From NCBI RefSeq assembly GCF_023195885.1, contig NZ_JALPKO010000006.1, forward strand, positions 1 to 64,000: DNA of 64,000 bases, given 5' to 3'. Source of the DNA: Methylonatrum kenyense. GTDB taxonomy: Bacteria; Pseudomonadota; Gammaproteobacteria; Nitrococcales; Aquisalimonadaceae. This document shows positions 15,949-48,597 of this stretch, in pieces (the stretch's first letter is position 1; each line of letters opens with the position of its first letter). A program made the translations under genes and the position numbers. The notes below the pieces were generated by a model that did not search any database, was not told the origin of the DNA, and was given only the letters and a program-made list of their open reading frames with translations.

Positions 15949-15990
15949 TTGATCCAGGTCATTTGTTGCCTTGAAAGCCCTTGCTAGCGT
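15949..15990 (+). promoter_or_regulatory. FNR/DNR-type operator and -10 box of the molybdoenzyme operon
   Basis: TTGATCCAGGTCAT (15949-15962) matches an FNR/DNR site (TTGAT-N4-ATCAA) fully in the left half and at 3 of 5 bases in the right. A -10-like TAGCGT is at 15985-15990. If transcription starts near 15997, the operator centre is at about -41.5, the classical class II activator position. The leader is then about 29 bases, with a purine-rich ribosome site (GGGAGGGGAGC) before the ATG at 16026. This predicts induction under low oxygen or by NO/nitrite. Confidence 0.6.
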
Positions 15991-16025: not shown

Positions 16026-19000
16026 ATGAGCGATCGATCACAACCGACATCGGCATCTCGCCGCCGGTTCCTGCAGGCCGCGGCAGCCGCAGGATTTGGG
16101 GCTGCGGTGACGCCTGGCGGGCTGCTTGCACAATTCCGTTATCTGGCCCCCACGCGCGTGGACAACCCGCTTGAGCACTATCCGGATCGCAACTGGGAGC
16201 AGCTGTATCGCGACATCTACCGCAGCGACGGTTCCTTCGTCTTTACCTGTGCCCCCAACGACACACACAACTGCCTGTTAAGGGCCTTTTTCAAGAACAA
16301 GGTTCTGACACGGATCGAGCCCACCTTCGGCTACCACAAGGCAACGGACCTCGACGGCAACAGGGCCTCGGCGCGCTGGGATCCGCGGTGTTGTCAGAAG
16401 GGACTCGTGCTCACCAGACGGTTGTACGGAGACCGTCGCGTCACCGGTGCGTTCATGCGCAAGGGCTTCAAGGACTGGGTCGATGAGGGCTACCCGCGAG
16501 ATGACACCACGGGGATGCCGCCGACACGGTTTCTTGAGCGCGGGACCGACTCCTGGGTCAAGGTCAGTCACGCCGAGGCGGCGGATTATCACGCCAGAAC
16601 ACTGAAAAACATCGCCGAAACATATTCCGGCGAACAGGGGAGACGTTTCCTGACGGAACAGGGGTACGAGGCGGCGATGATCGACGCCGCGGAGGGTGCC
16701 GGTACGCGGGTAATGAAGTTCCGTGGTGGCATGGCCAAGCTTGGTGCCGCGCGTCTGCTGGGCACTTTCCGCATGGGCAATAGCCTCGCTCTGCTCGATC
16801 ACCACGTCCGCGGCGTGGATCCGGAGGAAGCCAAGGGTGCTGGCGCCTGGGATTCCTATTCATTCCATACGGATCTGCCGCCCGGCCATACCATGGTTTG
16901 CGGCGACCAGACCAACGATTTCGAGTTTCATGATGCCGAGAATGCCGAGTTGATTGTCGTCTGGGGCATGAACTGGATCTGCACCAAGATGCCCGACAGT
17001 CACTGGCTCACCGAGGCCCGCATCAAGGGCGCCAAGACGGTGGCGGTCACGGTTGAGTACTCCGCCACGGCCAACAAGTGCGACGAAGTTCTGGTCATCC
17101 GTCCCGGAACGGATCCCGCGCTGGCACTTGGCATGGCCGGGGTGATCATGCGGGAGGACATCTACGACAGGGATTTCGTCCGTCGCTATACCGATCTGCC
17201 GGCCCTGGTACGAATGGATACGCTGGAGACACTGAAGGCCGCGGACGTCTTCCCCGATCACCAGGAGCGTCAACCCGACAACTGGACGCATGTGCTGGGT
17301 GCAGAGGAAACGGCACCACCGGTCCACCAGCAAAACGGCCGCTATATCCCGCATGCGCTGAAAGGGGAGTTTTCGGACTTTGTCGTCTGGGACAGCGCCA
17401 GGCAAGAGCCCGTGGCTGTGGGTACCGACCAGCTTGGTGATCACTTCGATGCCTTGGGGATCGACCCGGCGCTGGAAGGAACCTTCCGCATCAGGACGGT
17501 GGACGGCGAAACCGTCGAGGTGCGCCCGGTGTTCGAGCTGACCCGGGAGTACATCAACGAAAACCTCACGCCGGAGCAGGTGGAGGCCATTACCTGGGCA
17601 CCTGCGGAGGCGGTGGAGAGCCTTGCACGCGATATCGCCAGGCATGCCGGCAAGACCCTGGTTCCCTGTGGCATGGGCCCGAACCAGTTCTGGAACAATG
17701 ACAACAAGGACCGCGCGATCTTCCTGCTGGTCGCGCTGACCGGGAATGTCGGACGGCATGGTGGCAACATTGGCAGCTACGCCGGCAATTATCGGGTCAG
17801 TCTGTTCTCGGGTGCCGGTTTGTGGACCACCGAAGATCCTTTCAACGTCCAGCTTGATCCGGAGGGATCGGTTACCCGGCGGAGCACCATCCGCTACGAA
17901 TCGCTGCACTACTGGGCCAACGGGGAACGGATCATGACGGCCGGTGACAAGGTGATCACCACGGGCGGCCATGTACCCACGCCCACCAAGGCCATCTGGC
18001 AGACCAACTCGAATTCCAGTCTTGGCAACCAGAAAGGCCATTACGATGTCGTAAACAACACGTTGCCGAAGTGCGAGCTGGTGGTCTACAACGACTGGTG
18101 GTGGACGGGGTCCTGTGAATACAGCGACATCGTCTACGGCGTGGACTCCTGGATGGAGTTCAAGTACCCGGACATGACGGCGTCCAACACCAATCCGTTC
18201 CTGCAGGTCTTCCCGTCGACGCCGTTGCGCAGAAGTTTCGACACGGTGCATGACCTGGACACCTATCTGCTGGTTGCCCGGGCATTGAGCGAAATCACCG
18301 GTGACCAGCGCTTCGTGGACATGTGGCAATTCGTCGACGAAAACCGCGTCGACGTCTATCTGCAGCGCATCCTCGACCACTCGGCCAACCTGCGTGGCTA
18401 CCAGTTCCATCACTTGCACGCGCTTGCCCGCGACGGCATCCCGGTGTTGGTCAATAACCGTACGTATCCGCGCGTGTTCAGTTACGAACAGGTCACGGAA
18501 TCCAAACCCTGGTACACGAAGACCGGTCGCCTGGAATTCTATCGGCCGGAGCCCGAGTTCATCGAGGCTGGCGAGAATCTGGTGGTCTACCGCGAGCCGT
18601 CCGAGGCGACCTTTCACGAGCCGTGCGCAATCCTTGCCAAGGATCACCCGGCGATCCGACCCAAGCGGCCGGCCGATTGGGGCATCGAAGCCGATGATCG
18701 CAGTCACCAGAGCCGGCAGATGCGCAACGCCACGATGGACGGGCCGGCCCTGCTTCAGTCGAAACATCCGTTGTTGGACAAGGGATACCGCTACGTCTTT
18801 CACACGCCCAAGTATCGGCACGGTGCGCACACGACCCCGATCGATACCGATTACATGATGATGCTTTTCGGGCCCTTCGGAGACATCTACCGGCGCGACA
18901 AGCGCATCCCCGGGACAAGCGAGATGTATGTCGACATCAATCCGTCCGACGCCAAGGAGATGGGGATTGCGGACGGCGACTATGTCTGGATTGATGGCGA

Positions 19001-19526
19001 CCCGGAGGAACTGCCCTTCCGTGGCTGGCAGGAATCAGGCCGGGAGGATGCCTACAAGGTGGCACGGCTGATGGCAAGGGCCCGCTACTACCCGGGCACG
19101 CCACCCGGCATTACTCGCATGTGGTTCAACGGCTACATGTCCACGCCCGGTTCCGTCAAGGGGCATGAGACTCGCGAGGACGGTATCGCCAAGAATCCCG
19201 ATACCAACTATCAGGCCATGTTCCGCTACGGCGGTCACCAAAGTCTCACGCGTTCCTGGCTCAAGCCCACTCACCAGACCAATAGCCTGGTGTGGCGCAC
19301 GCTATTCAGTCACGTGCAGGGCCAGGGTTTCGCCGCGGATGTGCACTGTGTCACCGGCGCTCCGCGGGAGTCCATGGCCAAAATAACCAAGGCCGAGGCC
19401 GGAGGAATTGGCGGTGAGGGTCTGTGGCGCCCGGTAGCCCTCGGACTCCGGCCGTCGGCGGAAAGCGACGCCGTGAAACGTTATCTCGATGGTGCCTACG
19501 CCCGAACGTCCAACGAAGAATCCTGA
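16026..19526 (+). CDS. Type II DMSO reductase-family molybdoenzyme, catalytic alpha subunit (NxrA-like)
   Basis: The 1166-aa protein has a twin-arginine signal (SRRRFLQ, residues 11-17), so it matures in the periplasm. The N-terminal Fe-S motif is C75-x3-D79-x3-C83-x38-C122 (a second Cys at 123), with Asp where nitrate reductase NarG has Cys. I recall this Asp variant from NxrA nitrite oxidoreductases. [13 protein letters not shown] (residues 275-287) is the segment that gives the Mo its Asp ligand in this family, and [19 protein letters not shown] follows. Length fits NxrA (about 1150) better than Ser/Ddh/Ebd alpha subunits (about 910-980). The enzyme should use bis-MGD Mo to interconvert an oxyanion pair, probably nitrate and nitrite, but chlorate, selenate or another substrate is possible. 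The FNR-like promoter favours reduction. It is first in a four-gene operon. Confidence 0.88.
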
Positions 19527-19539
19527 GGAGGTCCCCGTC

Positions 19540-20667
19540 ATGCCGAGCGTTTACAACTGGCAACTGGGAAGGGAGATGGACTACCCGTTCGAGGGCGTCC
19601 GCCCGAAACGGCAGTTCGCCATGATTTTCGACACCAATAAATGCATCGCCTGCCAGACCTGCACCGTGGCCTGCAAGACGGCTTGGACCTCAGGTCGTGG
19701 CCAGGAATACATGCTCTGGAACAACGTCGAAACCAAGCCCTACGGCTATTATCCACTGGGTTGGGACGTCAACATCCTGGACAAGCACGGCGTCCAGGAC
19801 ATGGATGGCCCGGTGTATGAAGGCAAGACACTGTTCGAAGCGGCGCCGGCCGACAAGGTCGTGCTTGGCTACACGCCGAAGGACGAGGATTACGCATTTC
19901 CGAACATCGGCGAGGACGACTGCACCGGCGAGATGGACCAGGGGGCCTGGATGCAGATGCCGCATATGCAGTGGATGTACTACCTGCCGCGCATCTGTAA
20001 CCACTGCACCTACCCGGCCTGCCTTTCGGCCTGTCCACGGCAGGTGATCTACAAGCGCGAGGAGGACGGGATTGTGCTCCTCGATCAGAACCGCTGCCGG
20101 GGTTATCGGGAATGCGTGACTGGTTGCCCCTACAAGAAAGTGTTCTTCAATCCGATGACCCGCGTTTCGGAGAAGTGCATCGGCTGCTATCCGGCCATCG
20201 AGAACAATCGCCAGACCCAATGCACGATCACCTGTATCGGCAAGATCCGGCTGCAGGGGTTCATGGCGACGCCGGACGAGGCTCGCGAAGACAACCCGAT
20301 GGATTACATCGTCCATTACGCCAAGATCGCGAAGCCCCTCTATCCGCAATTCGGCCTGGAACCCAATACCTACTACATCCCGCCGGTCCATGTTCCGCCG
20401 AAGTATCTGCGGCAGATGTTCGGCTGGGGCGTCGAGGAAGCAATCGATACCTACAAGCGGGCGAGTGAGGATCCCAAGCTGCTAGGTGCCATGCTTCTGT
20501 TCGGTGCCACTCCGGAAATCATTCACCGTTTCAAACTGGAAGCCGGCAAGGCCGTCGGTTACGACGACAAGGGTGCGGAGCTGGTCCGCGTGCCGATGGT
20601 CGAGCCGACCTTCCTGCGTGATGCCTTCGACGGGCGGTTCAATGCCTATCGGACCAACGTGACCTGA
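19540..20667 (+). CDS. Molybdoenzyme iron-sulfur beta subunit (NarH/NxrB-type)
   Basis: The 375-aa electron-transfer subunit carries four cysteine groups: C35-C38-C41-C45, C153-C156-C161-C165, C186-Y189-C192-C196 and C213-C216-C228-C232. Tyr189 replaces one Cys in the third group. In NarH a Trp in this place gives a [3Fe-4S] cluster, so the protein should hold three [4Fe-4S] and one [3Fe-4S]. It has no signal peptide and should travel with the Tat-exported alpha subunit. The ATG at 19540 follows GAGGAGG and lies 13 bp after the alpha stop. It passes electrons between alpha and the heme gamma subunit. Confidence 0.92.
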
Positions 20668-20682
20668 TGAGGAGGTGTGCTC

Positions 20683-21516
20683 ATGTGGAGGCGAACACTG
20701 ACCACAGGCGCGGCGGCTCTGCTGGTGCCGATGGTGTTCGGCACGGCGATGGCAGCGGACGGGATCCGCGCCATAATCGTCGACGCCGATGGCGCACTTA
20801 AGGACCCGGAGGCTGCGTTCTGGGACGAGGCGGATCCGGTAATGGTCTCGATGCAGGCACAGATGGTGGCAAAACCGCTGCACGGGGAGCCTTCCGTCAC
20901 CGAGGTTTCGGTACGCGCGGCGCATAACGGGCACTGGATCGGCCTGCTTGTCGAGTGGGAAACGCCGGAGCCGCGGGACACGATCCGGCTGGACGATTTC
21001 GGTGACCAGATGGCGGTGCAGTTCCCGCTTGATGCCGGAGCCAGCCCGATGATGGGACATGACGGTGCCGCCGTGAACATTGTGCAGTGGCGTGCCGCGC
21101 TGCAGCGCGATATCGCCGAGGGCGAGCCTGAAATCAGGGATCTCTATCCCTACGCGCTGGTGGACGTCTACCCCGACGAGGTATTGAGCCTGACCGACGC
21201 GCGGGCCTACACCGGCGCCCTGGGCCTGGATAACCCGGTGGCCAGGCCTTTCGACAGCCCGGTGCTGGACCAGATGGCGGAGGGGTGGGGAACCCTGACC
21301 GTGCGGCCAATGCAGATCGCCGATGGTTGGGGAGTCTGGAAGGACGGTCGTTGGCGTGTGGCGGTGAGCCGGCCGATGCGACCGATCCTGGAGGGTGATC
21401 CGGATCTCTCGCCCGGAACGCGGCGCGCCGCGTTCGCGGTCTGGGATGGCAATAACGACGAGGTTGGGGGGCGCAAGAGCTGGTCCGGCTGGGTTGACGT
21501 GCAGATTGAGGAATAG
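20683..21516 (+). CDS. Molybdoenzyme heme-b gamma subunit (EbdC/NxrC-type)
   Basis: The 277-aa protein has a Sec signal peptide (residues 1-24, ending TAMA) and the beta-sandwich of the ethylbenzene-dehydrogenase gamma family. The usual Met and Lys axial heme ligands are probably M123 or M124 (SPMMGHDGAA) and K265 (GGRKSWSGW). It should link the beta subunit to a soluble periplasmic cytochrome c instead of to a membrane NarI. No NarI-like gene is present. ATG 20683 is chosen over the GTG two codons upstream because GGAGG lies 7 bp before it. Confidence 0.85.
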   Translation: MWRRTLTTGAAALLVPMVFGTAMAADGIRAIIVDADGALKDPEAAFWDEADPVMVSMQAQMVAKPLHGEPSVTEVSVRAAHNGHWIGLLVEWETPEPRDTIRLDDFGDQMAVQFPLDAGASPMMGHDGAAVNIVQWRAALQRDIAEGEPEIRDLYPYALVDVYPDEVLSLTDARAYTGALGLDNPVARPFDSPVLDQMAEGWGTLTVRPMQIADGWGVWKDGRWRVAVSRPMRPILEGDPDLSPGTRRAAFAVWDGNNDEVGGRKSWSGWVDVQIEE

Positions 21517-21519
21517 CAG

Positions 21520-22308
21520 ATGTCCGCCGAAAAAATGAGGAATACGGATCTCGAACTGGGCGAACTTCTAAGCCGTGCCTACCGGGCCCGCGCTGCCGCT
21601 CGCTTTCTCGCCTATCCGGAGCCTGATGAGGAGGAGGCGCTGGAGAAGACGCTGATCGGGCTTGAGGCCCAGGGCGCACTACTGGCGGATGATTCAGAAC
21701 GCAAGGCGATCAGCGATTTCGTCAGCCGTTGGCGGCATGCCGGGGCTGAAGTGCTGCGGGCCGAGTACGCGCGGCTTTTCCTTGGGCCGACCCGCTGTTC
21801 GCTGTACAGCGCAACCTATGGCAGTGGCGGGAATCTCGCTGGGCCGGCGGCTGGTATCGCCGATGTCAGCGGTTTTTATCAGGCTTTCGGTGTCGATATT
21901 CGCGAGGAGCAGCCGGAGCGTCCAGACCACCTGGCCGCTGAGCTTGAGTTCTACAGCTCACTGCTGGTCAGGCTTGCCTATGCGACCCACAACCAGTGGA
22001 ATGAAGCCGCTGTAGTGACCGGCGATGCCGCTCGCAGTTTTCTGCGAGATCACCTCGGGCGCTGGTCAGGCGTGGTCAGCCGACGGCTGGAGCAATTGGA
22101 CAGCATTGAAGCCTATCGTGCGCTTGCCAACTGGTTGGATGTCATGTTGCGGGAAGAAGCCACCAGGCTCGATGTGGACGTAGAGAGCTACGGCATTCCG
22201 GACTGGAGCACACAGGCCGGCGCCGAACCCATGCATTGTCCTCGGGATGATGACGCGGAAGCGTCGCCAGCCCAACCGATTCGTTTCCGGAGATCGGTGC
22301 AACGCTAG
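21520..22308 (+). CDS. TorD/DmsD-family chaperone for the molybdoenzyme (delta)
   Basis: The 262-aa helical cytoplasmic protein has TorD-type features: EYARLFLGPTR followed by YGSGG, the variant of the family's E-Y-x-x-L-F segment, and PDHLAAELEFYSSLL, the P-D-H-L-x-x-E-L signature. Such chaperones bind the Tat signal of the alpha subunit and help insert the Mo cofactor before export. It begins 3 bp after the gamma stop, in the order alpha-beta-gamma-delta used by ebdABCD. SerABDC, DdhABDC and ClrABDC have the chaperone third. The C-terminal 25 residues are polar and variable. Confidence 0.88.
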   Translation: MSAEKMRNTDLELGELLSRAYRARAAARFLAYPEPDEEEALEKTLIGLEAQGALLADDSERKAISDFVSRWRHAGAEVLRAEYARLFLGPTRCSLYSATYGSGGNLAGPAAGIADVSGFYQAFGVDIREEQPERPDHLAAELEFYSSLLVRLAYATHNQWNEAAVVTGDAARSFLRDHLGRWSGVVSRRLEQLDSIEAYRALANWLDVMLREEATRLDVDVESYGIPDWSTQAGAEPMHCPRDDDAEASPAQPIRFRRSVQR

Positions 22309-22662: not shown

Positions 22663-22962
22663 TGCTTGCCTTTAGCCGTTGCGGTAGGTCCCGTGCGCTT
22701 GCGCGCAGACTGCATCGGTCAAAGGCCTGCCTGGAGGCAGTGACCTTCGGGCCGAGCGTTGCCGTCATCCGTTTGTTCCTGGTCCGCGCCAAGCTACAGT
22801 CTTACCTGAAAAACCATACTGGCCGGGCAAGCGTTGCGCAAACCCGTAGGCCGGCAGGGCGGCGCATCGCTAACCGCTGGGACAGGTGGCGAAGAGCGGC
22901 GTTGCACGGGGGATCCTGACAATCGCGACTACAGGCAGTTGCATCACGCAAGGAGCCGAATC

Positions 22963-24087
22963 ATGTTCAAGACGGTCCTGGTCCTGGGCCACATCATCGG
23001 GATACGTATCCAGATCCATGTCAGCTGGATTTTCATCCTGATCCTTTTGCTGGCCAGCCTGAGTGCCGGTTTCCATCATCAGTATCCAGACTGGACGTTC
23101 TCGATGGTGACTGGATCGGCGGCGGTGACCGCGCTGCTGTTCTTCTCCTCGATCCTTGCACATGAGCTGGGCCACAGTGTGGTGGCATTGCGGCGCGGCA
23201 TCCCGGTGGAATCCATTACCCTGTTCATCCTGGGCGGCATGGCCCAGATGGGGCGGGATGCCGAACAGGCAGACGACGAGTTCTGGATAGCAATCGCCGG
23301 TCCGGCGGTCAGTCTGGCCCTGGCCTTGATGTTCGGTGGTCTGAGCTGGCTGACCTCCGGCTGGTTCGAACCGATACCGGTGGCGTTGGGCTGGCTTGGC
23401 CTGATCAACCTGATTGTCGCCGTGTTCAACCTGATTCCCGGGTTTCCGCTGGACGGCGGGCGGGTGTTCCGCGCCCTGGTCTGGAAATTCACCGGCGATG
23501 CCCGCAAGGCTGTCGAGGCCGCCGTCCGGGGTGGGCGGATGGTGGCCTACCTGCTGTTCGGTTTCGCCTTCTGGAATTTGCTCGTCGTCGGCAATCTGAT
23601 CGGCGGCATCTGGATCATGCTGATCGGCTGGTTCCTGCTGACCATGGCCGAGGGGCACGGGCGGATGTATGACATGCGGGAGCGACTGGCGGATGTCAGC
23701 GCGCGGGATCTGGCGAACCCGGATGTGCCCTTCGTCAGTCCGGATGTCTCGATAGACAAGTGGATCCACGACGATGTCCTGCCGGGCGGACGCCGATCCT
23801 TCCTTGTCGGCGAACCGGCGCAGGTCCAGGGTCTGGTGAGCCTGAGCGACAGCCGCAAGGTACCGCGGGAGCGGTGGAAGCTGACCCGGGTGGCCGACAT
23901 CATGACGCGGTCGGAGTCGCTGAGCCATGTGAGTCCGGACACCGGCGCCGAGGATATCCTGCGGCTCATGACCGAGCGTAAATTGAATCAGATACCGGTG
24001 ATGGAGCGTTCGGGACGGGCGATTGGCTGGATCGACCGTCAGCAGTTGCTGCGCACCATTGATATCCACATGGAACTCAAGCGCTAA
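22963..24087 (+). CDS. Site-2 protease (M50) with C-terminal CBS domain
   Basis: The 374-aa protein has an HEXXH zinc motif in a membrane helix (AHELGHSVVA), the second M50 signature NLIPGFPLDGGR, and about six helices in residues 1-220. A C-terminal CBS region (about 230-370, IMTRSESLSHVSPDTGAE) follows. This is the Rip/SpoIVFB-like family of intramembrane proteases, where the CBS domain senses adenine nucleotides. ATG 22963 has AAGGAG 9 bp upstream and starts just before the first helix. The substrate is unknown; no anti-sigma factor gene lies beside it. Confidence 0.88.
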   Translation: MFKTVLVLGHIIGIRIQIHVSWIFILILLLASLSAGFHHQYPDWTFSMVTGSAAVTALLFFSSILAHELGHSVVALRRGIPVESITLFILGGMAQMGRDAEQADDEFWIAIAGPAVSLALALMFGGLSWLTSGWFEPIPVALGWLGLINLIVAVFNLIPGFPLDGGRVFRALVWKFTGDARKAVEAAVRGGRMVAYLLFGFAFWNLLVVGNLIGGIWIMLIGWFLLTMAEGHGRMYDMRERLADVSARDLANPDVPFVSPDVSIDKWIHDDVLPGGRRSFLVGEPAQVQGLVSLSDSRKVPRERWKLTRVADIMTRSESLSHVSPDTGAEDILRLMTERKLNQIPVMERSGRAIGWIDRQQLLRTIDIHMELKR

Positions 24088-26685: not shown

Positions 26686-26821
26686 CCTGGGCAGAATGTT
26701 TGCCGATCACGGCATTGTCGCGACATGCTGTGGCTAGACTCGTCATAATCGCACCCGCATGAGGCGTTCGGCGCGGGGCGGGACGGAACGCACACTACAT
26801 CAACCCAAGGGAGATAGAGGT

Positions 26822-27241
26822 ATGGCAGGGATGACGGTTCCGGTGGAGGAATTCACCACGCCCGACCCGATAACCGCGAGCGAGGACATGGCGATCGAGG
26901 ATCTGAGGATCCTGATGGACCGGCATGGTATCCGGCACCTCCCGGTGGTCCGTGACGGCACCGTGGTCGGCGTGATCAGTGACCGGGATGTGCGCATCGT
27001 TCTGGGGCTGCCGTTTCAGGACCAGAGTCAGGTGCGTGCCTCGGATCTCATGGCACCGGATCCGATGACCGTGACGGCGGCCACACCGCTGGACCAGGTG
27101 GCGTTTGCGATGTCCGAGCGCAAGATCGGCAGCGTCATCGTCAATGACACGGAGGGTGGCTTCCTCGGTATTTTCACGGCCAGCGATGCCCTGAATGCCT
27201 TGATCGAGGTCATCCGGGGGGACGGGCCGGAAGCCGGGTAA
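26822..27241 (+). CDS. Stand-alone two-CBS-domain protein
   Basis: The 139-aa protein consists of two CBS repeats (residues about 8-65 and 75-130), with the usual MDRHGIRHLPVVRDGTVVG and MSERKIGSVIVND cores. CBS pairs bind AMP, ATP or other nucleotides and regulate partner proteins. ATG 26822 follows GGGAGATAGAGGT. It lies between a CDF transporter gene and two tiny frames. Confidence 0.88.
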   Translation: MAGMTVPVEEFTTPDPITASEDMAIEDLRILMDRHGIRHLPVVRDGTVVGVISDRDVRIVLGLPFQDQSQVRASDLMAPDPMTVTAATPLDQVAFAMSERKIGSVIVNDTEGGFLGIFTASDALNALIEVIRGDGPEAG

Positions 27242-33610: not shown

Positions 33611-34165
33611 ATGATGGAAACGGCCGTAGCCGCAGCCATATACGGAATCGCAATCCCACTCTGGCTTTACCTCTGGCACGCGGCCGAGGGTTTCTCGCAG
33701 ATGCGCAATGTGCGCTATCTGTGGTTGCCGTTCACTTTTGCCCTGCTCTACCTGGGCGGCAATCTGTTACTCGTCCTGTTCTTCCACGAAGTCGGATTGT
33801 CGCATTACGAGGAGAGCCGATTTGCCTTCATCGGCGAACGGGCGATGATTGCGGTCCAGGCAACCGCTTCGGTGCTGATTGTCGCGACCATCGTCTACGG
33901 ATTGACCATCCGCAAGGTGCCGCTGAACTTCATCCGTTTCATGGTGTTTTCCTTCGTTGCCCTGCTTGGCTTCATGGCGCCGATCCTGTGGGTTCCGGAA
34001 TCCATGCCGGGTGGGTTCGCGACGCTGCGGCATTTCCAGACCGTCGCCCTGATTTTCGGCCTGTTTTACTGCGTCTCAGGCATCGTGGTGCTGCTGAAAG
34101 ACCTGGTAGAGCACGGCGAGGCCCGGGTACACATCTCCTCGGCGGATCGCAGTTGGACCGAATAA
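33611..34165 (+). CDS. Integral membrane protein of unknown function
   Basis: The 184-aa protein has about five hydrophobic helices and a hydrophilic C-terminal tail. ATG 33611 has AAGGAG 7 bp upstream; a second in-frame ATG follows immediately. It precedes another membrane protein gene by 9 bp, so the two are probably one operon. No family recognised. Confidence 0.65.
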   Translation: MMETAVAAAIYGIAIPLWLYLWHAAEGFSQMRNVRYLWLPFTFALLYLGGNLLLVLFFHEVGLSHYEESRFAFIGERAMIAVQATASVLIVATIVYGLTIRKVPLNFIRFMVFSFVALLGFMAPILWVPESMPGGFATLRHFQTVALIFGLFYCVSGIVVLLKDLVEHGEARVHISSADRSWTE

Positions 34166-34174
34166 GGCAAGGCA

Positions 34175-34978
34175 ATGGATGGTATGACTCCAGCTGACCC
34201 CCCAAAGATCACTGCGCGCAAGCGGCGCAGCCTGCGCGCCCTGCTGCAGACCGAAATCCCGCTGGCAGTGTACTGCGTGATATTTTTCACCATGGTGATT
34301 CTCTGGATCATCCAGGAGGTCCATCCGGATATCACCCTGGGTCTGTTGACAGAGTTGATGGGTGCTGCATTCACGCTGTTTATCATCGATACCCTGTTGG
34401 TGCGTTCCAAGACGCGGCGGTGGCGGGTCGTGCAGGAACACGTGGATTATCTGATTGCACGCAACGTCAACCGCCTGCGCGACGGTATTGCCGTGCGGGC
34501 GTTCGGCTTCAACCCGTCAATCGCCCTGGATCGCCCGGACGCGAATCAGCACCAGGCCGTTCGCGAACAACGCGCCGATCTGTTGTCAGGCATTGCGGCT
34601 CTGCCGGCGGAGGCGATCATGGCGAGGCTTGCAGAATCGGCGCTTTTCGCCGACGACACATATGCTTATCTGAACGAGCGAGCCGACGATCTATGGGACG
34701 TGCTCAACATGAAGTATTCCGAGTACATGGCACCGGGTCTTGTGTCGGACCTGATGCGGCTGCACACGCATCTGAAAGACCTTTGCGGCCATTTGCGTCA
34801 GTACGGCAGGGCCGAGCGGTTTCCGGAAGCTGCTGGCTACTATCAGCGCATCGGCCGCCTGGGTGCGAGCGTCAGCGTTCGGGAGATCGTGATCCTGGTC
34901 AATGCGCTCAAGGAACAGGGCTATTCTGAGCCAGCGGCACTTGCCGACTCACCTGATGCCGAGCGGGGGTCTGGCTAA
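34175..34978 (+). CDS. Two-helix membrane protein with helical cytoplasmic domain
   Basis: The 267-aa protein has a basic N-terminus, two hydrophobic helices (about residues 27-50 and 57-76) and then a long helical cytoplasmic domain (80-250). It lies 9 bp after the previous gene and probably acts with it. No known domain was recognised. The tail is polar. Confidence 0.65.
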   Translation: MDGMTPADPPKITARKRRSLRALLQTEIPLAVYCVIFFTMVILWIIQEVHPDITLGLLTELMGAAFTLFIIDTLLVRSKTRRWRVVQEHVDYLIARNVNRLRDGIAVRAFGFNPSIALDRPDANQHQAVREQRADLLSGIAALPAEAIMARLAESALFADDTYAYLNERADDLWDVLNMKYSEYMAPGLVSDLMRLHTHLKDLCGHLRQYGRAERFPEAAGYYQRIGRLGASVSVREIVILVNALKEQGYSEPAALADSPDAERGSG

Positions 34979-35106
34979 TCGACCGGGTACTATTTGCTGC
35001 GTGGTTCCGTCGTTGCTACCTGCCCGGACCTGGAGTGATGCCCTTGCACCACGCCGGAGTGGCTCAGAAAACCACGCTGGCGCATGAGCATCTGATCAGC
35101 ACTTTC

Positions 35107-36033
35107 TCATGGCTCCAACCCCTCGAAAGTACCTTCGGCTTCCGCCTCGTCATCCGGACCGCTGGCAGTGAACTGCAGGGATCCGCGCATCGTGTCGCCC
35201 TGTTGTTCGAAGGTGATGCTGCCATTAACGTCTTCGATGCCGCCCTCGGCGGCACGCAGACTGAGCCTCAGGCCGTCGTCGCTGGAACGTGGCGTTAGTT
35301 CGTAAGTCCCCGGCTCGATGCCGTCGTCGGGCAGATCGATGGTTATCGCGCTCCGTATCGGACCGATTCTAAGCGTGTCGTAGGCGGTGCTGATCGAACC
35401 GCCGTCGAAATGGTGTTCATCGCCATTCAGCGTCAAGCGTGTGTCGGTCTCTGCCTGAGGCTGGAACGGGACATCGACCATGCGGCCATTGAGTGCGACG
35501 GAATTGCCATCGCCATCATGCAGCTCCACCTCGTAGGCCGCGGTGACGACATCGCCGAGTTCCGCGACGTCGACATGCCCCGATACGTCCTGGGCGAATG
35601 TCCATTCCTGGCCGTAGGAACGCAGCATTGCATAGGCGTCATCGCTGCCGGCATCACGGTTCGCCGTGAGTTGATGCCGGCCGGTTTCAGCACCGGCGGG
35701 CAACACGATCATCAGGTAGGACATGCGCTGATCGCCGTCGCGTTCCGTCTCGGTTCGAATCCGGATCAGGTAGGGTCCTTCCGCATTCGTGCCATCGCTG
35801 GCGGGCGCGAAGTCGTAGGGGCCACGATCTCCCTCATAGGCACCGGTTTGCGTGATGCTGCCGTCGACGCTGATTTCGTAGTCACCGCTGGAGAGCCCCT
35901 CGGTGATGGCATCCCGATCCACATCGGTGCCGGCTCCTGCGCCATCGCCATCGCTACAGGCGGTCAGCAGGCCGAGGCATGCGGTCCCCAAGCATGTCCG
36001 CACCAGCATGATTGTCGCACGATCCTTTTGCAT
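35107..36033 (-). CDS. Acidic lipoprotein of unknown function
   Basis: The 308-aa protein has a signal peptide ending in the lipobox LLTAC and a mature part rich in Asp, Glu and Gly, with a beta-rich pattern. The start MQKDR (36033) is chosen over one 18 bp upstream because AGGGGA lies at a normal distance. The gene diverges from the DUF4412-like gene across a shared region that holds a CRP/Vfr site. No domain was recognised. Confidence 0.65.
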   Translation of the reverse strand: MQKDRATIMLVRTCLGTACLGLLTACSDGDGAGAGTDVDRDAITEGLSSGDYEISVDGSITQTGAYEGDRGPYDFAPASDGTNAEGPYLIRIRTETERDGDQRMSYLMIVLPAGAETGRHQLTANRDAGSDDAYAMLRSYGQEWTFAQDVSGHVDVAELGDVVTAAYEVELHDGDGNSVALNGRMVDVPFQPQAETDTRLTLNGDEHHFDGGSISTAYDTLRIGPIRSAITIDLPDDGIEPGTYELTPRSSDDGLRLSLRAAEGGIEDVNGSITFEQQGDTMRGSLQFTASGPDDEAEAEGTFEGLEP

Positions 36034-36111
36034 TTCGAGTCCCCTTTTCAATCCGGTGTTAACCTTTATTAAACTGTATTAGATCTAGAAATATGACTTT
36101 CGACTAAAGGT

Positions 36112-36132
36112 TTACCGGTTTTTTGCCGGTAA
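36112..36132. other. Small AT-looped hairpin in the divergent promoter region
   Basis: A 7-bp perfect stem (TTACCGG with CCGGTAA) has a T-rich 7-base loop. It lies between the two divergent genes, in an AT-rich patch that is likely to contain the minus-strand promoter. It could be an operator. Confidence 0.35.
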
Positions 36133-36188
36133 TTTGCCATTTTTGCAAAACGGCCTTTCACTTGGTAGCCCGCATGGGGCAGGATGAC

Positions 36189-36204
36189 TGTGATCTGTTT
36201 CACA
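36189..36204. promoter_or_regulatory. CRP/Vfr-type binding site, perfect palindrome
   Basis: TGTGATCTGTTTCACA matches the consensus TGTGA-N6-TCACA at all ten fixed bases. It lies 101 bp before the ATG of the plus-strand gene and 155 bp from the start of the minus-strand lipoprotein gene. It could control either or both through cAMP or a CRP-family regulator. Confidence 0.65.
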
Positions 36205-36305
36205 GCATCCGACGGGTTGTTTTCTGCATCGTGGTCGGCACCATTGCAGACGTTTTTTTTGCGACGCCGAATAACACGCGATCACGACATTCACTGGGGG
36301 TAAAT

Positions 36306-37145
36306 ATGGGTAAGGGCAGGATTTTGATGCACGCAACCGTGCTGGGGGCGTTCGCTGGAGCCGGCGTTTTCGGTGCATCCGGCGCCATGGCCGCGGATTA
36401 CGTTGGGACCTACATGACGCCGGATGGCGAGATGACGCTTGAGTACCGGGATGACCAGAACCTGCGGATGCTGACACCGGAGGGCGATCATATGCTGATC
36501 AGCGGTGGCAGCACCTATGTCGTGTCCCAGCAGGATGGCGAATGGGTGGTCATGTCCATGGACGAGATGCTGTCCATGGCCGGGGAGAGCGCCCCGGTAG
36601 AAGAGGCCGAATACCGCATGAATGCGACCGGGCGGACGGAGTCCGTTGGTGGTTTCAGCGGCGAAGTCTATGAAGTGCAGCGCTGTGATGCCTGGAGCGG
36701 GGATTGCACCGCGGATGGTGAAGTGGTGGTCAGCGATGACCACCGGGTCGCCAACCTGTTCGCCGGCATGCAGGCCATGTCGCGCCAGATGAGCCAGCAT
36801 GATGGCGACGACGTTATCGATATGCCGGACGGCATGGAGGGTTACGGCCTGCTGCGTGCCGATGGAATCGAGCTGCAGAGCGCAGAGCAGACGAATCTTC
36901 CCGATCATACCTTTGCCCTGCCGCCAAACCACCGTGAGGTCGATCCGATGGCCGGCATGCAGGGCCAGGGCGACGCGCCGCCCCCCGGACGTGGTGAGGA
37001 ATCAGGTGACGACGGATCGCAGGGCAGCTGGTTCGGCGATTCCGCGCGCGACGTCGGGCGGCAAGCGGGTGAGGATGCCGAGGACGAGACCAGGCGCGGG
37101 ATCAGCGATACCGTGCGTGACGGGGTCCGTAGTCTGTTTGATTGA
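36306..37145 (+). CDS. Secreted DUF4412-like protein
   Basis: The 279-aa protein has a signal peptide (residues 1-30, ending GAMAA) and then a Met-rich, acidic, beta-strand-rich body. Sequence such as RMNATGRTESVGGFSGEVYEV resembles DUF4412-type periplasmic proteins. The last 70 residues are polar and disordered-looking. ATG 36306 follows a GGGGG ribosome site. A CRP/Vfr site lies upstream. Confidence 0.6.
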   Translation: MGKGRILMHATVLGAFAGAGVFGASGAMAADYVGTYMTPDGEMTLEYRDDQNLRMLTPEGDHMLISGGSTYVVSQQDGEWVVMSMDEMLSMAGESAPVEEAEYRMNATGRTESVGGFSGEVYEVQRCDAWSGDCTADGEVVVSDDHRVANLFAGMQAMSRQMSQHDGDDVIDMPDGMEGYGLLRADGIELQSAEQTNLPDHTFALPPNHREVDPMAGMQGQGDAPPPGRGEESGDDGSQGSWFGDSARDVGRQAGEDAEDETRRGISDTVRDGVRSLFD

Positions 37146-37237
37146 TCCGGTGGGGCGGGCCCCGGCGCCCGCCCCTGGTTGACGCGCGTCGGTTTGATTG
37201 CGCGCGCAAGGAAGCGATTTATCGAGGGACTCCGATC

Positions 37238-38215
37238 ATGTGGGATTTTCGAATGGGGCAGGCGATTCGTCTTCTGCTCGCGACCATGCCATTTCTGCTG
37301 CTTCGGCTGGCCGTCTATTTCGGTATCACCCTGGCCTATGTGCTGGCCACCGGCACCGGTGCCGGCCTGGGCTGGGGCATTGGCGCCTTGGGCGATGAAG
37401 GCTTTCGCGCCGGCTCCACGTTCTTTGGCGGACTGATCGGCTTCGGCATCATCGGCGCGCTGGTCTACTGGTTTCGTGAGTACCTGCTCTACATCGTCAA
37501 GGCCGGGCACATCGCGGTTATGGTGGAGAAGATGGATGGCGGCTCTCTACCCGCCGGGCGCTCGCAGATCGATCATGCGCGCGGCGTGGTGCAGGAGAGG
37601 TTCAAGGAGGCCTCGGTACTGTTCGTCCTGGATCAGGTCGTCAAGGGCGTGCTGCGGGTGATTGTCGGCATGGTGCGATCGGTGGTTCGGCTGCTGCCGA
37701 TTCCCGGTGCAACGCAACTGGTCGGGGTGATTCACGCCATTCTGCGCATGGCGGTGGGGTTCATCGACGAGGTGATCCTGGCGCACGCGATCCGTACCCG
37801 TTCCGACAATCCCTGGCAGTCGGCGCGTACTGCGCTGGTGCTGTATGGCCAGAACTACAAGTCCATGCTCAAGAACGCCGTTTGGCTTGCCCTGTTTGTC
37901 TACGGCCTGTCGATTCTGGTCTTCCTGGTCATGCTCACGCCGGCGGCGGCGCTTGCCTATATGGTGCCGGGTGGCTGGGGCGCGACCAGCGTCATCATTG
38001 CGCTGTTGCTGGCCTGGAGCGTCAAGGTCGCCGTGATCGAGCCGTTTGCAGTGACCTGCATGATGCAGGTCTTCTTCTCGGTCACCGAGGGCCAGCAGCC
38101 GGATTCGGAATGGGAACAGAAACTCGAAGGCATGTCGGACCGCTTCAAGGAACTCGGCAGCAAGGCTGCCTCTTGGGTTGGTCGCGGCAAGGGGGCAGCT
38201 ACCGCGCAGGCGTAG
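37238..38215 (+). CDS. Multi-helix membrane protein of unknown function
   Basis: The 325-aa protein has about five helices and amphipathic segments between them. Residues 95-190 include FLLLRLAVYFGITLAY-like segments earlier and VVKGVLRVIVGMVRSVVRL; the C-terminal 40 residues are soluble. ATG 37238 is chosen because it begins just before the first helix; the in-frame upstream ATG at 37142 adds a non-membrane stretch. It overlaps the convergent 38199 gene by 17 bp. No family recognised. Confidence 0.65.
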   Translation: MWDFRMGQAIRLLLATMPFLLLRLAVYFGITLAYVLATGTGAGLGWGIGALGDEGFRAGSTFFGGLIGFGIIGALVYWFREYLLYIVKAGHIAVMVEKMDGGSLPAGRSQIDHARGVVQERFKEASVLFVLDQVVKGVLRVIVGMVRSVVRLLPIPGATQLVGVIHAILRMAVGFIDEVILAHAIRTRSDNPWQSARTALVLYGQNYKSMLKNAVWLALFVYGLSILVFLVMLTPAAALAYMVPGGWGATSVIIALLLAWSVKVAVIEPFAVTCMMQVFFSVTEGQQPDSEWEQKLEGMSDRFKELGSKAASWVGRGKGAATAQA

Positions 38216-39647
38216 GCAGTTCGACGACTTCGCTATGGCTGACGCCCGTGTAATCAAGGGTCAGCGTCTCGGTGGCTGCATCGATCCGGTATACGGCGGT
38301 GAAGCGGCGCGCTTCGCCGCCGGCCGGCAGCCAGAACGGTTCTTCCAGGGCGAGAGGCCCTGGCTGATAAACCGCCAACGGTTCGATTGTCTGCTCGTCG
38401 GCGTCCACCAGGGTCAGTCGGTTACTGATTGGCATCATGCCGCCGGTGTCACTCTCGTTTCGCAGGGATCCCGTCAGCAGCAGGAGTTGCGTGTCCGGCT
38501 CGGCCGAGTGTGTGGCGAAGGTCTCCGCCTCGCGTAGATCGTGAAGCTGGAACGGTGTCGGTTCATCGGCGATCTCCAGCAGCACCTCGGTACTCGCCAT
38601 ACCCTCGGTCGATCGGTCCGACTCGAGGGCCAGGTCGAGCGTAAAGCGTATTGGTTCGCGGTTTCGCTGCGGGATATCGGTGGCGCGGAACTGTGGAAAG
38701 TGGGCTACCAGCTCCACCTGATCCGCCTGTTCGGGCACCGGAAAGACCGCCAGGCCGCCGGCCGTCGCGTCGGGCAGCCAAGGCGGATCGGCAGGTAGCG
38801 TCCCCAGGTCGTTGCGACGCAAATAGCCATGCTGCTGGTCGACCACCAGTTGCAGCAGGCCGCTTGCCTCCATGTATTCCATCACCTTCGGTACCTCTGC
38901 ACGGGCGTCAAGGTCTGCGGAGACATCCAGCGCCCGGGCATCGGCCTCGATGGTCCAGAGACTGGTGCCGCGCAGATCCACCGCAACCCATTGCATGCCT
39001 TCAGGAGCTGCCTCGCCTCTCCATTGCTCATGCAGGGACACGTCATGGATGCCGATTCGCATCAGGTCGTTCTCGGCGCTGTCCAGCGCGTCTGAGGCGG
39101 TTGCCTCGCCGTCTACAAGGCTGACGCGAAGCGGCGCGTATTCATCGTGGTAATAGTGCAGTGAGAGGGCTTGCAGGCCATCGGTCGGCACGCGGTAGGC
39201 GACTTGCCCGCTGGCACTGGCCCCGACGTGCGGAAGGACGAATTCATCCGTCATCCCGGAGTCGGCCGGAAGCGTGGCCCGATTGATGCGCGCACCATTG
39301 GCAAGCAGATAAAGCTGGCGTTCCAGCGAGGCAATCAGGATCGGTTCCGGGTAATTCAGACCGAAGAGCAGATCGGCCGGCATCCAGTTATCGAACCGCA
39401 GGTCCAGCACCAGCCAACGGTCGCCATCGGCCGGCGACTCTCCGTCCAGGCCGTCCTGCAGCCGTGCGCCAGTCACGTGCAGGCTGATCGCCCGGTTGCA
39501 GTCGGACAGGGCGAGGGACTGGTGACGTTCCAGCTCCGCAAGCTGGTCCGGACCGAGCGGTTCGGAAATAGGCTGGGCAGCCGGCGCCATGGGCAGTAGC
39601 AGGCAGGCCAAGGCAAGCCAGGGGATGATCGTTCTGGGCTGGGTCAT
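38199..39647 (-). CDS. Exported beta-rich protein at the end of the stator-vWA cluster
   Basis: The 482-aa protein has a signal peptide (about residues 1-24, ALACLLLPMAPAA) and an acidic, strand-rich body with no recognised domain. It is 10 bp downstream of the transglutaminase-fold gene on the same strand, so it belongs to the same unit. A role in the extracytoplasmic assembly encoded by this cluster is an inference. Its end overlaps a convergent gene by 17 bp. Confidence 0.65.
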   Translation of the reverse strand: MTQPRTIIPWLALACLLLPMAPAAQPISEPLGPDQLAELERHQSLALSDCNRAISLHVTGARLQDGLDGESPADGDRWLVLDLRFDNWMPADLLFGLNYPEPILIASLERQLYLLANGARINRATLPADSGMTDEFVLPHVGASASGQVAYRVPTDGLQALSLHYYHDEYAPLRVSLVDGEATASDALDSAENDLMRIGIHDVSLHEQWRGEAAPEGMQWVAVDLRGTSLWTIEADARALDVSADLDARAEVPKVMEYMEASGLLQLVVDQQHGYLRRNDLGTLPADPPWLPDATAGGLAVFPVPEQADQVELVAHFPQFRATDIPQRNREPIRFTLDLALESDRSTEGMASTEVLLEIADEPTPFQLHDLREAETFATHSAEPDTQLLLLTGSLRNESDTGGMMPISNRLTLVDADEQTIEPLAVYQPGPLALEEPFWLPAGGEARRFTAVYRIDAATETLTLDYTGVSHSEVVELPTPAR

Positions 39648-39657
39648 CGGTGGTTCC

Positions 39658-42069
39658 TCAACACTGGCTGGCCGGCGTTACCGCGTCCAGGAAGCTGTCG
39701 GTGGCCTTTCCGGCCAGCTTGCCGACCGCCATGCTGTTGAGCATGTCGAACAGCTTGTTGCCACCGGTGATGACGAAACCCGACAGCTCCGCATAACTAC
39801 TCAGGCCGTTGCTCATGTAGCTGCTCACGGCGGAATTGACCGCGGCACTCTTGACGCAGCAACTCATGCCCTCGGCGTAGTCGAACTGGAACATGCAGGC
39901 CCAGACGGTCTGGACCATGCCGACGACATCGACTGCGGTTTCCATCTGCTCGATCAGCAGCAGAATGCCCTCGACGTACTGTCCACGTGCATCCGGACCG
40001 AAGCCCAGAAGATCTCCGGTTTGCGGGTTCAATTGCCACCACACGGGCTCGCCGTCGGTTTCGGCAGGCGCGATGATCAGTTGGTCCTCGCCTGCAAGCG
40101 CAAGCGTTGCCCGCAGATCCTCCTTCTGTCCGGTCCCCTCGAATACGGCATCGGCCGATTGCGCGGTCCATGGGGATTGCCGATCGAGATCCCGCGCGAA
40201 TGCGACTGCCGTGTTGGCGGCAGTCGGTGTGTCGCCGGCGATGAGCCGTGCCTCCAGCAAGGTATCGGTGACGCCCTGGGCAATCCGGACCATCGCGGCG
40301 TCATCGCTGGCGGCCGGCACAGCGACCCGGTTATCGATGATGTCCAGGCCTTCCCGTACCGCCGGCTCGCCATCACCGTCCAGGCTCAGCAGGCGTGCGA
40401 AGCCCAGCAGATTGACACGGTCCAGGGCAATATTCTCGCGTTCAGGGCTCAACACCTGCCGCAGGCGCGCAAGCTGGTCCAGCTCGGAGCGGCGCGGTTG
40501 CCGTTCGTCCAGGGCCTGGTCAAGGAAATCGAGGCCGTCACGAACCGCGGCATAGGCGGCGCCAACGGCGGGCAGGCGGTTATCCAACAGTTCGCCATAG
40601 CGCAGCGCGGAGAGTTGCTCGGCCGGCATCCAGGCAACCTGCGGCGCCAGTTCCATGCTGCCCAGCATGGCGGTTGCCCGTGCGTCCCGGCGCGCCTGGT
40701 TGAAGCGGGGTAGATGGCTGTCGCCATGCCGCGCCGCCGCACCGATGACATCCATCATCGGCCGTTCGAAGTGGTCCACATCGCGGTTGGGCGTGTGAAC
40801 TGCCAATTGCAGCAGGACGGCACTGAGTTCCGCCGGTGGTGCCTCGTCCTCGCGCTCACGACCGCGGAGGCTAAGTTCGCCCAGGGCGCCGGTCGCTTCG
40901 TCAAAGGCCTCGCCGTGCGGCGCCAGCCCCCGCTGCTCCTGCACCGTGCCGTCGCTGAGAATGCTTTTGTCGCTGACCAGATCGCCGCCAATGCGGAGCA
41001 GGGGCATCCATTCCGTTTCCTGCAATACCGCGGAGGGCAGTCCGGCCTGATCGAAATCGCCGTCCACGCCGAGTACCGCGGCCATGCCAGGTACGTTGAA
41101 CGGGTACGTTTCGATGCGGATCTGTTTGCCGATCAGTTCGCTGACCGGGAAGCGATGCGTCAATGCCGTATGTTGCCGCAAGCGGTCGCCGACCAATTGC
41201 TCGGCGATGATGGCAAGCTCCAGCCAGTGGCGCTGGTCCTCGGGGATGTCTTCGGGGTAGAACGCCGTTTGGTGCGCCTCATCAAGCCAGCGTTCACCGG
41301 CGGCGAGATCGGGGAGTGCCGGGTCCAGGTCCTGCCAGTGTCCGCCCTGGTCGATCTGGACCCACCAGTGATGCGTGACGGGCGCGCTTCCGGCCGCCAC
41401 ATCCCCGTCGAGGAACTGCTCCAGCGCGCCTTGCTGGACCGAGACGGCTTTGGCCAGTTCGCTGCCGCTGGCCTCGAATCGTTCCAGTTCCCGCCGTATG
41501 TCCATGGAGAATTCCGCGGGATCGAGATCGAAGCGTTCGGCGGTCGCCTGGATTCCCGCATCCTGTTGCGTCAGTTCGGCGCTGGTCTGTGGTTCCAGGG
41601 GAATCGGCACGTCCAACCAGCGGGCGGCCAGGGCGGTTGCCTGCTCTGTCTCGATTTCGCTGCCGACGATGCGGGCGGTATGACCGGCACGCCGCAACAG
41701 ATCGGCCAGCAGCAGTGCACGATCCAGACTTGATCCCATGCGGTCCATGACCACGCCCTGTGCGCCACGCAGTTCGCCGTCATAGGCCAGCCAGCGGGTT
41801 TCGTCCCGCACCCAGGCGAACAGTGTTTCCGGTGCGCTGCCAAGCGAGGTCTGCAACGCGGCCGGATCGAAATCCTCTCGCGGCAGGGCCTGTGCGGCGT
41901 CGTGAGCGGCCTGGCTTACGGCGTGAACCTGCTGCTCCAGGCTGGCCGTGCCGTCGTCCGGGCCGATCGGTGAGCCCGGACAGCTATTCGCGGCCAGGGC
42001 GCTCCCGCAAACGCCGAACAGGACCAAAAGCCCGAAACAGCGGTGGATATGGGCAAACAGATAGCGCAT
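39658..42069 (-). CDS. Exported transglutaminase-fold protein lacking the catalytic Cys
   Basis: The 803-aa protein has a signal peptide (residues 1-27, ending SALAA). The N-terminal half contains a transglutaminase-like core: MGSSLDRALLLADLLRRAGH (111-130) is the segment with the usual G-x-C-x-D-x-A motif, followed by THHWWVQIDQGGHWQDLDP (232-250). His233/234 and Asp249 are in place, but Ser113 or Ser114 stands where Cys is expected. It is therefore a pseudo-enzyme, a binding module or a Ser-type variant. The rest is helical and acidic, with a Cys-rich end (CMFQ, SCCVKS). The start at 42069 is chosen because it begins 16 bp after the vWA gene and immediately before the signal peptide. Confidence 0.75.
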   Translation of the reverse strand: MRYLFAHIHRCFGLLVLFGVCGSALAANSCPGSPIGPDDGTASLEQQVHAVSQAAHDAAQALPREDFDPAALQTSLGSAPETLFAWVRDETRWLAYDGELRGAQGVVMDRMGSSLDRALLLADLLRRAGHTARIVGSEIETEQATALAARWLDVPIPLEPQTSAELTQQDAGIQATAERFDLDPAEFSMDIRRELERFEASGSELAKAVSVQQGALEQFLDGDVAAGSAPVTHHWWVQIDQGGHWQDLDPALPDLAAGERWLDEAHQTAFYPEDIPEDQRHWLELAIIAEQLVGDRLRQHTALTHRFPVSELIGKQIRIETYPFNVPGMAAVLGVDGDFDQAGLPSAVLQETEWMPLLRIGGDLVSDKSILSDGTVQEQRGLAPHGEAFDEATGALGELSLRGREREDEAPPAELSAVLLQLAVHTPNRDVDHFERPMMDVIGAAARHGDSHLPRFNQARRDARATAMLGSMELAPQVAWMPAEQLSALRYGELLDNRLPAVGAAYAAVRDGLDFLDQALDERQPRRSELDQLARLRQVLSPERENIALDRVNLLGFARLLSLDGDGEPAVREGLDIIDNRVAVPAASDDAAMVRIAQGVTDTLLEARLIAGDTPTAANTAVAFARDLDRQSPWTAQSADAVFEGTGQKEDLRATLALAGEDQLIIAPAETDGEPVWWQLNPQTGDLLGFGPDARGQYVEGILLLIEQMETAVDVVGMVQTVWACMFQFDYAEGMSCCVKSAAVNSAVSSYMSNGLSSYAELSGFVITGGNKLFDMLNSMAVGKLAGKATDSFLDAVTPASQC

Positions 42070-42085
42070 GGGGTGGCTCCGAATC

Positions 42086-47542: not shown

Positions 47543-47818
47543 GACGCAAGCCCTGCCCGAGCGGAGGTTCGGACGCGAAACTCCACGGCTAGTGATGGGA
47601 ACCGCTTTTTACGACGCCTCTGGGATCGCTGAGCGAACTGATCCGGGATGGATCCGGTCCTTTCCCTGACCTGATTGTCCCGGCCGCTCCGGGCGCCTTT
47701 ATTCCAGTTGGCGATTTATCCGTTCCCGTTCGTATTGTTTTTCAGGCAGCCTATGTGAGCCGGCTTGGCGGGCGCAAGTCCGGAAGCGGTGGGGTGGGGC
47801 GATCTGTCGCGACCGCAG

Positions 47819-48595: not shown

Positions 48596-48597
48596 CG

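Follow-up and report, generated by a model that had tools for sequence, protein, structure and literature searches.

Positions 1 to 64,000 of Methylonatrum kenyense contig NZ_JALPKO010000006.1 (the whole 64,000-nucleotide stretch analyzed, hereafter the window) contain a four-gene operon for an exported molybdoenzyme related to nitrite oxidoreductase (NXR). An open-reading-frame (ORF) check confirmed the span 16026–22308 and the order alpha, beta, gamma, chaperone given in an earlier annotation (the original prediction); all four genes lie on the same strand and are nearly gapless. The catalytic molybdenum (Mo) subunit, alpha (16026..19526, + strand; 1166 aa), carries a twin-arginine (Tat) signal, RRRFLQ, and aligns with Kuenenia NxrA; full-length homology ruled out a chance ORF. 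The iron–sulfur (Fe-S) cluster subunit, beta (19540..20667, + strand), is 375 aa long from an inferred ATG that leaves no overlap with alpha, or 392 aa from an ATG at 19489 that would overlap it. Because the Kuenenia NxrB alignment covers beta only from residue 19 on (numbered from 19489), and because most beta ORFs of the sister clade defined below are 375–378 aa long, the ATG at 19540 is most likely the true start, and 19489 was dropped. No signal is evident on beta, which would travel with Tat-exported alpha. Gamma, an EB_dh heme-b subunit (20683..21516, + strand; 277 aa), has an N-terminal hydrophobic signal; since no later stretch exceeds the hydropathy limit used, it is probably a soluble secreted heme-b protein. 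The last gene (21520..22308, + strand; 262 aa) encodes a TorD/NarJ-type maturation chaperone by family matches. None of the four operon proteins reached an NCBIfam cut-off: alpha scored 311 bits against TIGR03479 (cut-off 985), and gamma and the chaperone gave sub-cut-off matches to the type II models TIGR03477 and TIGR03482.

Compared by sequence with solved structures, alpha, beta, and gamma each had the corresponding Kuenenia NXR subunit as top match. Alpha matched NXR-A over its full length at 870 bits (PcrA, 200; NarG and EbdA, ~128), beta matched NXR-B at 386 bits (PcrB, 219), and gamma matched NXR-C at 57 bits (EbdC, 54). Ligand positions were likewise conserved. Alpha C75, D79, C83, and C123 align with the Kuenenia FS0 ligands C67, D71, C75, and C115, N78 with the substrate residue N70, and D283 with the Mo ligand D275, the residue roles being those assigned in the consulted part of PMC8387239. 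Alpha therefore has the residue set of canonical NxrA: three Cys and one Asp at FS0, the substrate Asn, and the Mo-ligand Asp. The C-x3-D-x3-C portion of the motif in the original prediction stands (C75-x3-D79-x3-C83), but its x38 spacing ends at C122, whereas the ligand position is C123 (x39), which is invariant in a 10-row alignment. In gamma, M124 and K265 align with the Kuenenia heme ligands M155 and K305; the heme columns hold Met in 65 of 65 rows and Lys in all 61 rows that reach the position (four gaps).

The Mo loop separates subgroups. DLPPGH occurs in 104 of 136 distinct alpha-type proteins and DQ in 22 canonical NxrA, the remaining 10 being six outgroup rows, three fragments, and one protein without the loop pattern; a raw pattern search gave 27 for DQ, five of these being sister rows with the match at another place in the chain. 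DLPP is common to alpha, the host NarG, and a PcrA-like enzyme. A separate observation concerns a subclade of six distinct proteins (L012, L129–L132, and L167), situated inside an otherwise Asp-bearing clade, that reads CTPNCTHNC, with Cys replacing Asp at the fourth FS0 ligand position.

Phylogeny placed alpha beside, not within, the canonical NXR enzymes. The maximum-likelihood (ML) tree comprised 67 rows, namely the Kuenenia piece and 66 of 152 collected alpha-type rows that we chose for spread, leaving out fragments, duplicates, and many close rows; a bootstrap tree used 35 of these 67. No Nitrotoga, Hydrogenobacter, Nitrospina, SerA, ClrA, or DdhA row is included. In both trees the NarG, PcrA-like, and EbdA-like rows are outermost and Kuenenia and Nitrospira-type NxrA form one clade (100/100); in the ML tree the EbdA-like and PcrA-like rows and two more type II rows are well separated from the window clade. 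Alpha falls in a clade sister to canonical NxrA with support of 100/100 in the bootstrap tree, and forcing the window, L035, and L068 to group with canonical NxrA was rejected by the approximately unbiased (AU) test (p-AU 6.8e-6). Long branches meet among the outgroups in both trees; judged by its support, with outgroups kept throughout, the ingroup split is independent of them.

The AU test and the sister-clade position rule out canonical NxrA membership, and the strict NxrA placement of the original prediction was accordingly not borne out. Alpha does not group with the PcrA-like, EbdA-like, or NarG rows, in a tree without Nitrotoga, Nitrospina, Ser, Clr, or Ddh rows, and membership in the Ebd, Pcr, or NarG groups is excluded by tree position together with the structure-match scores. 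Against the NarG model TIGR01580, alpha scored 159 bits (cut-off 1084); it has Cys75 where NarG has His, and no NarI is encoded among the four operon genes. The nearest tree row is Thioalkalivibrio thiocyanoxidans ARh 2 (alpha 80% identical), followed by a bin labeled Opitutia; farther out in the sister clade are Magnetococcales, Thiomargarita, Beta- and Alphaproteobacteria bins, a Planctomycetota bin, and Rokubacteria. Thioploca (L095) and Parabeggiatoa (L112) alphas also lie inside it. We identify the clade with the published sister clade of NXR and nitrate reductase (NAR) on the basis of these two Thiotrichaceae rows and PMC6050957, in the consulted sections of which that clade, described in 2018, holds a nitrite oxidizer and nitrate reductases and its direction of catalysis is left open.

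Upstream sequence hints at possible control by oxygen. An FNR/ANR-type box, TTGATCCAGGTCAT (15949..15962, + strand), begins 77 bases before the alpha start and matches TTGAT-N4-ATCAA at 8 of 10 positions. Three related loci carry 9/10 boxes at nearly equal distance (L035, −82; L036, −74; L039, −73). Within 250 bases before alpha, boxes of 9–10/10 were found in 9 of 15 proteobacterial loci, which we chose from 51 scanned and which include the window, and in 70 of 3000 random windows drawn from the same loci, which may contain the sites themselves. Carriers of such boxes include T. thiocyanoxidans, Thiomargarita, Thioploca, and two Magnetococcales. Because relatives carry stronger boxes, the window box is credible, and the low-oxygen-type promoter proposed originally survives in this qualified form. 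A sigma-70 and terminator scan of the alpha promoter region found nothing.

We compared gene content across 36 of 43 known carriers of the alpha gene (left out: G455, G506, G518, G538, G542, G565, and G856); G431 and G789 are the same genome, giving 35 distinct carriers, 15 with cytochrome d1. NarG exceeded its cut-off in one of the 36, the window host, and was absent at that level from the other 35. NapA did so in nine, with three more below cut-off and 27 in all without an over-cut-off match. Cytochrome d1 matched in 16, nine of which have neither NarG nor NapA (G215, G419, G422, G451, G463, G478, G677, G787, and G790); without the window-type enzyme, these nine would have a nitrite reductase-type gene but no NarG/NapA-family nitrate reductase. 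Copper nitrite reductase exceeded its cut-off in none of the 36, with one weaker match. In a 398-genome sample, apparently that of the phylum search below, 13 of the 21 carriers had cytochrome d1 (E up to 1e-80), compared with 38 of the 377 remaining genomes (Fisher p 5e-8); a hand count at genus level gave 8 of 9 carrier and 25 of 204 other genera. At one locus (L072 1-1191, equal to contig 145 of G790, a Nitrospirota bin), a divergent cytochrome-d1 gene, cut by the contig end, adjoins alpha.

Neighboring genes offer candidate electron donors. Among 98 loci, a set that includes some records twice and five to eight canonical NxrA, the beta cluster was present in 86, gamma in 65, and the chaperone in 38. 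Loci of other phyla have flavoprotein (23 loci), cytochrome b (22), and multiheme c (17) genes nearby, and a Rieske protein is present in L090, the one locus checked; cytochrome b, multiheme c, and Rieske neighbors could carry electrons from quinol to a periplasmic reductase. ScdA/RIC-type genes lie near eight loci, as do Crp/FNR-type genes near eight.

The genes, their order, homology, conserved ligand positions, and tree position are observed directly, whereas substrate, direction, electron donor, and regulation are inferred. The operon is read as encoding a soluble periplasmic alpha–beta–gamma molybdoenzyme of the NXR sister clade whose main role is probably respiratory nitrate reduction under low oxygen, with a probability of about 0.68. 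Indirectly, gene content and FNR boxes favor the original proposal of an NxrA-like, periplasmic, probable nitrate reductase under FNR-type control. In this scheme, the chaperone would help load the Mo cofactor, alpha would be exported with beta by Tat, and gamma would follow the Sec route. Electrons would come from a c-type cytochrome, itself supplied by a bc1 or Rieske/cytochrome-b complex, and arrive at the Met/Lys-ligated heme b of gamma, from which they would pass through the beta Fe-S clusters and the 3Cys/1Asp FS0 of alpha to Mo, where Asn78 would position nitrate. Nitrite would form outside the cytoplasm, and therefore no nitrate importer would be needed. The evidence from gene content and FNR boxes suggests more broadly that most sister-clade members are nitrate reductases; if so, "nxrA" matches that fall outside the true NXR branch in metagenomes are not readable as nitrite oxidation.

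Several observations weigh against nitrate reduction. NXRs are reversible, and therefore gene content cannot fix direction. The 8/10 score of the window box is not significant alone, since simulated sequences with matched dinucleotide composition reach it in 12% of cases; sites of at least 9/10 are also missing from 6 of the 15 proteobacterial loci (window included) and from 35 of the 36 loci outside that set. Absences are uncertain because several of the carriers are incomplete bins, and PF02239 matches NirN/NirF-type proteins as well. Because many carriers are Magnetococcales and same-family noncarriers also have cytochrome d1, the cytochrome-d1 association is inflated and partly reflects kinship. 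The host already has narGHJI, and no cytochrome d1 or copper nitrite reductase was found in its genome; a second nitrate reductase is therefore not obviously needed. T. thiocyanoxidans is a sulfur oxidizer and a described species whose genome has the sister-clade enzyme, with no NarG and no NapA found. It is nevertheless reported, in the excerpt of PMC5328954 consulted, to be unable to use any nitrogen oxide as electron acceptor; the same excerpt lists a "partial" nar for it by BLAST, which may be the sister-clade operon, given the absence of NarG and NapA matches. Finally, Nitrotoga, a proven nitrite oxidizer, is placed in the same sister clade in the consulted sections of PMC6050957.

A rival reading is a nitrite oxidoreductase that, in air, oxidizes nitrite in the periplasm; electrons would leave through gamma and reach a terminal oxidase by way of a high-potential cytochrome c, and the benefit would be energy or nitrite detoxification. 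We consider this reading unlikely. It accords with Kuenenia NXR as top match of all three subunits, with the FS0 Asp and Met/Lys heme b shared with that enzyme, with the gene set shared with Nitrotoga (same sections of PMC6050957), and with a host that has NarG besides and a near relative reported not to respire nitrate (PMC5328954, same excerpt). Against it stand the position of alpha outside canonical NxrA, the FNR-type boxes of relatives including T. thiocyanoxidans, the frequency of cytochrome-d1 genes in carriers without NarG or NapA, and the lack of any oxidase or cytochrome c among the scanned window ORFs. For the branch formed by the window and T. thiocyanoxidans specifically, we see a slim prospect that catalysis proceeds toward nitrite oxidation or in both directions; T. 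thiocyanoxidans and the window host would then be unrecognized nitrite oxidizers with a periplasmic enzyme, beside or replacing cytoplasmic NarG. A reductase of another oxyanion (selenate, chlorate, perchlorate, or iodate) on the same scaffold is very doubtful: the type II family does include Ser, Clr, and Pcr (PMC6050957, consulted sections), and gamma and the chaperone resemble type II models as noted, but type II rows in the tree (PcrA-like, EbdA-like, and two more) fall far outside, alpha is under every curated cut-off, and no chlorite dismutase model matched among the scanned neighbors.

Respiratory nitrate reduction by this enzyme, as preferred here, would take place in a host with a second system. 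The host narGHJI lies on another contig (C23) with two NarK-family genes, one below cut-off, and the idea of a sole nitrate reductase of the host was abandoned once it was found; the segment (L153 8653-18681) also encodes a NifM-like protein. In the window itself, as originally stated, there is no narGHI, narK, or cytochrome c, in that no such family matched among 34 scanned ORFs, a subset of the window ORFs; CxxCH occurs in only two window ORFs of at least 80 aa, each inside the span of a long ORF. Other neighbors are of separate character. A gene for a phage tail sheath protein (PF04984, PF17482; 14613-15806) directly precedes the operon in the same orientation, and in 33611-50243 most scanned ORFs have no Pfam match, one ORF of 1818 aa having a von Willebrand A domain. 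An M50 peptidase with a CBS domain (22834-24087) and a double-CBS protein (26759-27241) lie near the operon, and related M50/CBS ORFs lie near the T. thiocyanoxidans copy in a different arrangement (L035 3030-4220 and 6808-7500).

Around the host the alpha gene has a patchy distribution, suggesting acquisition by transfer. At E up to 1e-50 it is missing from all 39 near genomes, three of which share the genus of the host. With the window genome included in both cases, matches turned up in 8 of 369 class genomes and in 21 of 398 from the phylum; among the eight, three are canonical-type NxrA. Three genomes of the same class (L161, L162, and L163) have alphas of the canonical NxrA clade; a cytochrome-bd-like protein cluster adjoins two of these alphas, and the hosts are possible unrecognized nitrite oxidizers. 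In the phylum of Nitrospira japonica genome G784, 56 of 198 genomes matched: 11 are of the sister type (51–56% identical) and the others are canonical NxrA (about 38–43%) or pieces of it. The sister clade is broad across phyla and has a haloarchaeal plasmid member. Of the related loci, which number at least 583 when both clades are pooled, the best 80 all show 54–80% identity and represent Acidobacteriota, Planctomycetota, Myxococcota, Rokubacteria, Magnetococcales, Thiotrichaceae, Nitrospirota, and others. The Natronococcus occultus plasmid (L152 9001-12389) carries a 47% identical alpha, in two matched pieces and outside the gene table, that precedes Fe-S and TorD-family genes; within 7 kb are a gene for iron–sulfur repair and one for a cbb3-type oxidase of 1088 aa, which may be a nitric oxide reductase. 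A limited literature search found no paper on nxrA in Magnetococcales and, judged by title, none on NXR in Thiomargarita; the main text of PMC4624188 contains none of five terms for nitrate or anaerobic growth, and the Rokubacteria nxrA counted in the consulted passages of PMC8141241 may belong to either clade.

Four known systems frame these observations. The window resembles EbdABCD (PDB 2ivf) in gene order and in its heme-b gamma subunit; unlike in that enzyme, alpha scores 128 bits to EbdA vs. 870 to NxrA, and the EbdA-like row lies far outside. The ebdABCD-type label of the original prediction thus describes the gene order, but Nitrotoga nxr loci have the same set, listed in the consulted sections of PMC6050957 as NxrA, NxrB, a putative NxrC, and a putative chaperone. 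With the host NarGHJI, alpha shares type II membership and the DLPP of the Mo loop, whereas the host system has a NarG-type FS0 motif with His and a membrane NarI, its NarG being 25% identical in part. Kuenenia stuttgartiensis NXR-ABC (PDB 7b04) agrees in length, the 3Cys/1Asp FS0, the substrate Asn, the Mo Asp, and the gamma heme Met/Lys positions; it differs in its Mo loop (DQAPGH, against DLPPGH in the window) and its separate clade, with 37% alpha identity across 954 columns, measured on the Kuenenia piece included in the tree. The fourth is the clade that holds Nitrotoga NXR together with the periplasmic nitrate reductase of Hydrogenobacter thermophilus, as far as the consulted sources describe it, with a Tat alpha, a beta, a soluble secreted heme gamma, and a chaperone. 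Window alpha is, like that clade, sister to Nitrospira/anammox NXR, and the placement of Thioploca and Parabeggiatoa agrees with the consulted part of PMC8387239, which names Beggiatoa and Hydrogenobaculum nitrate reductases as NXR-clade relatives; after the Mo loop, Nitrotoga has Q-M (PMC6050957, consulted sections) and the window Q-T. The window operon encodes an exported molybdoenzyme, most likely a nitrate reductase, that belongs to the NXR/NAR sister clade, a clade already known, for which the comparative evidence on direction is new.

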